From the NCBI RefSeq assembly GCF_005155025.1, contig NZ_CP039731.1:496001-560000 (forward strand): a DNA stretch of 64,000 bases, in the 5' to 3' direction. The position numbers and the translations under genes are program-made. The DNA is from Aquitalea aquatilis. Its GTDB lineage: Bacteria > Pseudomonadota > Gammaproteobacteria > Burkholderiales > Chromobacteriaceae. Below the pieces are notes generated by a model. It was given only the letters and a program-made list of their open reading frames with translations, ran no database searches and had not been told where the DNA came from. Of this stretch, positions 38,524 through 38,960 are shown piece after piece. Position 1 is the first letter of the stretch, and the number at the start of each line of letters is the position of its first letter.

Positions 38524-38551
38524 GGGAGTGGGGAGTCAGGAGTAGGGAGTA
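38524..38551 (+). repeat. Four tandem 7-bp repeats (GGGAGTN), downstream flank
   Basis: GGGAGTG, GGGAGTC, AGGAGTA and GGGAGTA follow one another without spacing. The array is the mirror-image partner of the one at 38933-38960, on the other side of the four-helix-bundle gene. Confidence 0.9.
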
Positions 38552-38572
38552 ACCCCGGCCCGACCAGCCCAC

Positions 38573-38935
38573 TTAATCTTTCAATTTGTTTCGCAAACTG
38601 CTGATCAATGCAGAAAGCAGCTTTCCGGTTTTGTTGAGTGCCGGGATTCCTGAATGTTGCTGTGGGAGATAGCCAAGGCGGACTGCCAATTCCAGCTGTG
38701 TATCCATCTCACTGAGTGAGCCACGCGCCACAACCAGAAAATGGACATAGTCTCTGGTGGTACTGCGTGCGGCCCCTTCAGCAATATTGGAGGGAATAGA
38801 CACTGCTGCGCGCCTAAGCTGGGCTGTCAGGCCGAACTTTTCTTCGGCAGGAAAGCTGGCGGTCAATTGATAAATCAACTGTGCCAAATTCATGCTTTCC
38901 TGCCAGGCGTGTAGCTGCTTGTGCGGCTTGTCCAC
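38573..38935 (-). CDS. Four-helix-bundle protein, S23/Avd-like family
   Basis: A 120-residue, almost wholly helical protein. It has the family's layout: [19 protein letters not shown], then [21 protein letters not shown], then SNIAEGAAR, then an amphipathic C-terminus. This matches the 23S-rRNA intervening-sequence protein / four-helix-bundle family, relatives of the Avd protein of diversity-generating retroelements. Its function is unknown. The start is a GTG (38933-38935) formed by the last three bases of a 7-bp repeat array. The preceding repeat unit supplies GGGAG at 6-base spacing. It lies inside the gltB-gltD operon, same strand, with no sign of reverse transcriptase or rRNA nearby. Confidence 0.9.
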
Positions 38936-38960
38936 TCCCTACTCCCTATTCACTACTCCC
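38933..38960 (-). repeat. Four tandem 7-bp repeats (GGGAGTN), upstream flank carrying ribosome site and start codon
   Basis: On the minus strand GGGAGTA, GTGAATA, GGGAGTA and GGGAGTG follow directly. The last unit ends in the GTG start of the four-helix-bundle gene. The array is inverted relative to 38524-38551, so the gene is bracketed by terminal inverted arrays. Confidence 0.9.

Follow-up and report, generated by a model that had tools for sequence, protein, structure and literature searches.

Between gltB and gltD of Aquitalea aquatilis, a small gene of the S23 four-helix-bundle family is enclosed by two inverted arrays of a 7-bp repeat, and this raises the question of what kind of element such a cassette represents and whether the arrays and the protein belong together. 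The window analysed here is the whole stretch of 64,000 nucleotides around it (contig NZ_CP039731.1, positions 496,001 to 560,000); genomes and loci used for comparison carry G and L numbers, the window genome being G000. Among known systems the cassette comes closest to the intervening sequence (IVS) of 23S rRNA that codes for S23, and not to a MITE. On balance, we hold it probable that the cassette is an element of the IVS type residing outside rRNA, in which S23 probably acts in trans as the partner of the arrays.

The layout of the cassette is given in Table 1. The S23-family gene was found where the initial annotation had placed it, and it scores over the cut-off of both family profiles, PF05635 (3.2e-35, 121 bits, cut-off 33.8) and TIGR02436 (2.8e-34, 117.6 bits, cut-off 24). 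On the gene strand, the 5' arm is composed of GGGAGTA, GTGAATA, GGGAGTA and GGGAGTG, and the 3' arm reads GGGAGTG, GGGAGTC, AGGAGTA and GGGAGTA on the plus strand. Four 7-bp units per arm had been claimed correctly, but exact GGGAGTN is seen in three of the four units of each arm, GTGAATA (5') and AGGAGTA (3') being the misfits. Judging from the sequence, the GGGAG of unit 3 in the 5' arm lies 6 nt ahead of the GTG formed by the final three bases of unit 4, in line with the earlier proposal that this arm brings the translation start. The arms are inverted-identical at 22 of 28 positions, the unique top of 63,550 same-spacing 28-mer positions in the window, with none higher, so that the description as a cassette with terminal inverted arrays is borne out. 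With at most one mismatch allowed, four matches to GGGAGTNGGGAGT lie in the window where 0.16 would be expected, and none of 100 shuffles reached four. RNA folding of 38500-38985 (minus strand), which includes the entire ORF, gave an MFE of -190.2 kcal/mol (z -4.26) with the arms paired.

Table 1. Features of the gltB-gltD region in window coordinates.
Feature	Position	Strand	Description
S23 / four-helix-bundle gene (PF05635, TIGR02436)	38573..38935	-	120 aa, GTG start; ORF and Pfam
Upstream heptamer array (5' arm)	38933..38960	-	4 units; likely ribosome site and GTG start
Downstream heptamer array (3' arm)	38524..38551	+	4 units, opposite in orientation to the 5' arm
Whole cassette	38524..38960	-	437 bp; arms can pair in the transcript
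gltB-gltD spacer	38508..38968	-	461 bp, gltB stop to gltD start
gltB	38969-43468	-	same strand as the S23 gene; Pfam domains agree
gltD	37089-38507	-	same strand as the S23 gene; Pfam domains agree

The available part of the study of the Coxiella burnetii 23S rRNA IVS describes an element of 428 nt whose terminal inverted repeats form a 28-bp stem, with tandem GACAGAT heptamers before the S23 ORF that vary in number among strains; the element is excised by RNase III, and IVSs are described as sporadic in distribution and termed selfish (Warrier et al., 2016; PMC4990558). The cassette resembles this IVS, as far as it is described there, in its length of about 430 bp, its S23 ORF, its inverted-repeat ends and the heptamers ahead of the ORF. 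Members of the rRNA IVS class lie inside an rRNA gene and are excised by RNase III with the flanks left unligated. The cassette has the S23 ORF, which is a feature of some IVSs, and a terminal-inverted-repeat stem (22 of 28 positions, arms paired in the fold). The Coxiella IVS, however, lies in rRNA and the cassette between two protein genes, gltB and gltD; since rRNA residence is lacking, we file it as an IVS-type element outside rRNA and not as an rRNA IVS. Elements of the cassette kind differ from the Coxiella IVS, within the part of its description available, also in that both arms are heptamer arrays, the host operons are many and unrelated, and gene-free pairs are dispersed. A crude 23S motif scan of the loci up to L270 returned a single short match apiece for 12 loci, none of them convincing as an S23 locus inside rRNA, so the tie to rRNA IVSs comes from one paper and the shared protein family.

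The initial annotation had named 23S IVSs and retroelements (Avd) as relatives of the gene. The kinship with the S23 of IVSs stands, whereas that with Avd is a distant homology: the window protein matches the Avd profile NF033474 with E 3.4e-4 and 20.9 bits, far under the 80-bit cut-off, and no reverse transcriptase adjoins the gene. Indeed, the sole RVT_1 match of the window genome lies at 4.04 Mb and the cassette at 0.53 Mb, as expected from the earlier remark that no reverse transcriptase is near. With neither an Avd over the cut-off nor an adjacent reverse transcriptase, the cassette falls outside the diversity-generating retroelements. An RVT_1 reverse transcriptase as a requirement for S23 elements was rejected, as it was missing from 5 of the 11 S23-positive genomes tested. 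Moreover, arrays are rare at Avd loci, which served as a homology control (n = 10), with a left array in two, a right array in none and an inverted match in one.

Flanking heptamer arrays proved to be a general property of S23 loci. The first locus set consisted of the best 80 of 578 S23 relatives found in public genomes with one query, and gave 77 usable left and 78 usable right flanks, with both in 75 loci; other ORFs from these loci supplied the control flanks. A period-7 score of at least 12 was obtained for 40/77 left and 40/78 right S23 flanks, against 20/261 and 17/293 control flanks. Other periods were scarce in the S23 flanks (none at 3-6 and 10-12, 0-1 at 13, 1-2 at 15, 2 at 9 and 5-7 at 8; 14 scores as a harmonic of 7). 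The left and right flanks of one locus matched each other in inverted orientation with a score of at least 12 in 55 of 75 loci, compared with 4.75% of 400 cross-locus pairs. A direct match of at least 12, alone or beside an inverted one, was present in 20/75 loci against 3% of the cross pairs, examples being the Flavobacteriaceae loci L041, L063 and L076. A period-7 array together with an inverted match characterized 42/75 S23 loci and 3/233 control ORFs, and any single criterion 69/75 and 36/233, respectively. The check proposed earlier, whether arrays of the GGGAGTN type surround four-helix-bundle genes elsewhere more often than chance, comes out positive for inverted 7-bp arrays, but not for the GGGAGTN word. 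Homologues without arrays had been named as an argument against a mobile cassette; most homologues have arrays, while 6 of the 75 loci are without one by every criterion.

Left arrays are G-richer in 39/40 cases and right arrays C-richer in 36/40. We therefore rejected the reading that S23 was inserted into one existing array, since such an insertion would give both sides one orientation.

Beyond the first set, a motif located 24 of the best 29 loci at class level (L137-L165), and 22 of these had a score of at least 9 on at least one side; in the class-level locus scan, 10 of 43 loci escaped the motif. The arrangement was found in 24 of 35 further S23 loci, used out of 40 after removal of three gltB-gltD relatives and two contig-edge loci, from genomes that were partly chosen as array-rich or multi-copy and that overlap the class-level scan. 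Eleven S23 loci on viral contigs included eight with a left array score of at least 10, four of them near-identical, and six with an inverted match of at least 12. S23 had no match among 50,697 phage records. Among 72,556 plasmid records it was found in 29; an organism is listed for 24 of these, and in 23 cases it is a cyanobacterium. Inverted matches were seen in 6/6 cyanobacterial plasmid loci analysed. As an observation apart, two such loci from two genera (L294, L296) carry S23 and arrays within a CRISPR operon, where they separate cas6 from cas4.

The heptamer changes from locus to locus, and a GGGAGTN-specific signal was rejected accordingly. One Nostoc S23 locus does bear GGGAGTA, a word of the window cassette, and S23 loci of Luteimonas and Dokdonella have GGGAATC and GGGATTC arrays. 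We also discarded a universal unit G[GT][GT]ANNN: in the first set its information of 3.68 exceeded the highest value of 60 permutations (3.11), the observed value coming from 40 restarts and the permutation controls from 10, and in the further loci it occurred in 16/36 against 11.8 expected (p=0.06). At L013/L193 (Paludibacterium, G033), S23 is flanked on either side by longer interspersed repeats with CGGGAGT/ACTCCCG in place of simple heptamer arrays.

G-rich heptamer repeats have been described independently of S23. According to the available part of one study, which treated them as quadruplex formers, GGGAATC in Xanthomonas and GGGGA(C/T)T in Nostoc are mostly intergenic, and two Xanthomonas genomes hold 70 and 75 convergent repeat pairs (Rehm et al., 2015; PMC4692102). 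The cassette arms share with these repeats the tandem 7-bp G-rich units and the arrangement as a convergent pair, and Xanthomonas campestris has an S23 protein; the convergent GGGAATC pairs fit an S23-heptamer picture. The terms S23, intervening sequence and four helix do not occur in the main text of that paper (PMC4692102). In Beggiatoaceae, tandem intergenic TAACTGA heptamers in many copies were reported, with occurrences also in cyanobacteria and Bacteroidetes (MacGregor, 2015; PMC4679880); in the available part of this source the repeats are direct with one inverted case, in contrast to the inverted cassette arms, and the term S23 does not appear. The part of the open-access literature that we covered holds no statement of heptamer arrays flanking S23 genes in general.

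Is the word a property of the genome, of the site or of the S23 copy? Within eight genomes with several copies (G144, G402, G393, G309, G387, G184, G200, G187) the S23 copies have arrays of differing words, the exceptions being L171 and L174 of G402, which share one word, and a few copies without an array. For eight shared sites pooled, several of them named by reading of the flanking sequence, the match between own left and right arms had a median of 14.5 (n=23), against 7.5 for cross matches (n=50; p=3e-5). At gltB-gltD alone, own matches of 14.5, 15.5 and 10.0 lie below the best cross match of 19.5, and own fails to beat cross for single loci at other shared sites as well. In five families (L176, L179, L183, L191 and L198) S23 stands between rpsI, identified by reading frame, and tRNA-Gln(CTG); together with L190 and L204 these proteins form one starred group of seven in the tree, yet their words differ. 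The word therefore mostly belongs to the S23 copy, and the two arms tend to change in step around a gene that stays.

At 47 of 67 loci S23 is read in the direction of both neighbours. Hosts recognized by flanking reading frames include accB-accC, sdhA-sdhB, secD-secF, ahcY-metF, guaA, nadD, murG and rfbA; annotation adds cas6-cas4 and two ribonucleotide reductase genes, the latter on the opposite strand. This orientation bears on the main rival explanation, a purely RNA-processing role, in which the arrays form a hairpin that is processed by RNase III and so insulates the S23 cistron within an operon, selection on the hairpin keeps the arms complementary, and the job of S23 is unrelated. Pairing of the arms in the fold, the match of own left and right arms across shared sites and the RNase III excision of an rRNA IVS (described in the available part of PMC4990558) are likewise what such a role would predict. 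It gives, however, no reason for 7-bp tandem arrays over any other stem, and an excess of gene-free arrays in S23-positive genomes is left unexplained by it. We consider it unlikely.

The gene-free arrays begin in the window genome itself. One S23 gene was found there, and GGGAGTNGGGAGT occurs in three places only: the cassette, 311311-311367 and 2415428-2415547. The last consists of convergent arrays without S23, between genes read from their sequence as acyl-CoA carboxylase and acyl-CoA dehydrogenase, and shows that arrays occur apart from an S23 gene. A survey of the class comprised 369 genomes, 71 with S23 over the cut-off (S23-positive) and 298 S23-negative, including six with weaker matches. 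Fourfold GKGANNN gave 2,368 matches, 2,190 of them in the 71 S23-positive genomes; the counts include overlapping units, so that one long array can yield many, and were transcribed by hand at genome and family level. At least one match was present in 40/71 S23-positive and 34/298 S23-negative genomes, at least five in 25/71 and 5/298, and at least 20 in 16/71 and 1/298. Patterns of this type detect some heptamers only, and 24 of the 71 S23-positive genomes had no match to either of the two patterns used, while 17 of the 298 S23-negative ones had at least five with both patterns together. Among 35 families with both states, S23-positive genomes were higher in 16, lower in 5 and tied in 14 (p=0.013, the only p-value that takes descent into account), and in the window's own family S23-positive genomes were array-richer (7 vs 30 genomes, p=2e-5). 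Relatedness thus does not carry the whole association. In that family, the S23-positive G030 and G017 had 291 and 485 matches, a single array of about 126 units accounting for part of the latter, and their S23-negative congeners G025 and G034 had none. This long array, on contig C12 of G017 (L254, 1571-2455), is gene-free, is built of GGGAGCC over 884 bp and lies beside a short opposite array.

In 34 dispersed-array loci, picked by hand from the pattern lists and in part representing one site in congeners (L257, L258, L265), adjacent pairs were convergent in ten cases, divergent in none and in the same direction in five; all ten pairs on opposite strands were convergent, not all of them independently. 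Under a mechanical gene model, 33 of 51 dispersed arrays were intergenic and 18 lay inside an ORF.

Arrays outside S23 loci also invite the reading that S23 is a passenger, which settles in, or is kept by, genomes that already form heptamer arrays by slippage. Some S23-free congeners retain arrays, and at one gene-free site the number of units is about 5, 3, 2 and 0 in G004, G003, G005 and G001, respectively, both of which a passenger would accommodate. Entry into a single array, on the other hand, predicts equal orientation on both sides, contrary to the opposite strand bias (39/40 and 36/40), and the S23 copies of one genome mostly have differing words. We judge this explanation improbable. 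Three further genomes (G232, G326, G377) are array-rich with no S23 detected, and might reflect recent losses or another agent.

The gltB-gltD junction was compared among relatives. The cassette is present in three of eight compared genomes of the genus (G000, G001 and G004) and missing from G002, G005, G006, G007 and G009, so that it is not a fixture of all close relatives, a circumstance that had been named as counting against mobility. Four congeners have a native spacer of 88-91 bp, measured to the gltD start, and G009 has one of about 120 bp. In the filled genomes the 461-bp spacer stands in its place; the altered stretch begins at the gltB stop and extends to roughly codon 6 of gltD. Per 100 bp, the identity of the coding flanks to G000 is 86-100% whether a genome is filled or empty, with 77-93% in G009. 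The native spacer having been replaced, neither a clean insertion nor the target-site duplication expected of a MITE or transposon was found between filled and empty sites at this, the one junction compared, and a classical insertion with target duplication was rejected. Of the small mobile cassette first proposed, then, presence and absence within the genus and the empty sites were recovered, but clean insertion and target duplication were not.

Outside the genus, gltB-gltD is filled in G017 and G030 of another genus, and in G033 an S23 gene lies about 750 bp from gltB; 17 of 30 junctions could be parsed in this survey, the remaining 13 having escaped the search motif. The S23 tree contains 94 proteins (73 of the 80 loci, the rest dropped by the no-internal-stop filter, plus 21 added), and is built on few columns with most forks weak. 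In it G030, G033 and the window's genus fall into one group of six (support 81, not starred), which G017 joins in the next larger group of 13 (support 92, not starred). That the S23 proteins at or beside gltB-gltD of three genera are near one another, with modest support, speaks against a fresh hop. The pattern looks like exchange of junction alleles, or an old element repeatedly lost, and not like recent transposition.

In a MITE-like explanation, a transposase provided in trans would mobilize the arrays as terminal inverted repeats, with S23 as cargo. The terminal inverted arrays, the presence and absence between congeners, the many differing host sites and the gene-free array pairs would all suit it. 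However, the replaced spacer without target-site duplication (at one junction) and the proximity of the three genera in the tree are at odds with it, and the terminal words differ among most copies of a genome, which a sequence-specific transposase would hardly tolerate. To our knowledge, S23 itself is not known as a transposase. A MITE-like origin therefore appears highly improbable, and chance or an assembly artefact can practically be dismissed, given the shuffle, flank-control and 28-mer tests and the presence of the same cassette in G001 and G004.

For the reading that we favour, in which an IVS-type element lies outside rRNA and S23 is the partner of its arrays, the following course of events may be envisaged. 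The two convergent arrays of 7-bp units would serve as arms that enclose the S23 gene. Pairing of the arms in the gltB-gltD transcript would give a long, slidable hairpin whose loop holds the S23 frame, and RNase III might cut the stem as in rRNA IVSs, parting the S23 message from its neighbours, while the likely ribosome site and the start codon would come from the 5' arm. The S23 protein would most likely bind its own heptamer duplex or RNA. It is basic here (pI 9.6; median 9.0 for 94 proteins, with Q, R, S, N, E and G near-invariant), Q39, R42, S46, N50, E53, G54 and E76 are among the residues invariant in 15 aligned relatives, and the solved relative from Xanthomonas campestris (2gsc, XCC0516) has five deposited chains and is described as a homopentamer. 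S23 might then act in trans on arrays of its word, helping them to grow, persist or spread. Gene-free array pairs may be dependants of S23 in much the way that REP palindromes are of RAYT proteins. In both cases a single-gene protein family is tied to dispersed inverted repeats, the S23 units differing as 7-bp tandem arrays of shifting sequence. Correlation does not show that S23 makes the arrays.

A broader proposal, which we put forward tentatively as a serious possibility somewhat short of probable, is that S23 proteins are trans-acting makers or keepers of bacterial 7-bp arrays in general. Each gene would have a convergent pair of its own word, the arms would change together, gene-free pairs would spread, and the rRNA IVS would be one special landing site. 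If true, this would assign a function to a large protein family and an origin to unexplained heptamer repeats. The function of the S23 family and the origin of bacterial heptamer repeats are two old puzzles that are now statistically tied, with loci from many phyla, and each gains a testable partner. A word mostly bound to the copy and two co-changing arms call for a mechanism of concerted change, for which slippage alone or a fixed-sequence transposase is insufficient.

Two minor observations concern Avd-like genes. At the Avd locus L207 (G293), a long period-7 array (score 78) stands before the Avd gene, the other side being without an array. In G384, contig C1 of a small genome has 11 distant S23/Avd-like matches scattered over it, many with identical scores; they are mostly open frames of 136 aa, with best E values of 2.7e-8 to S23 and 1.5e-13 to Avd.
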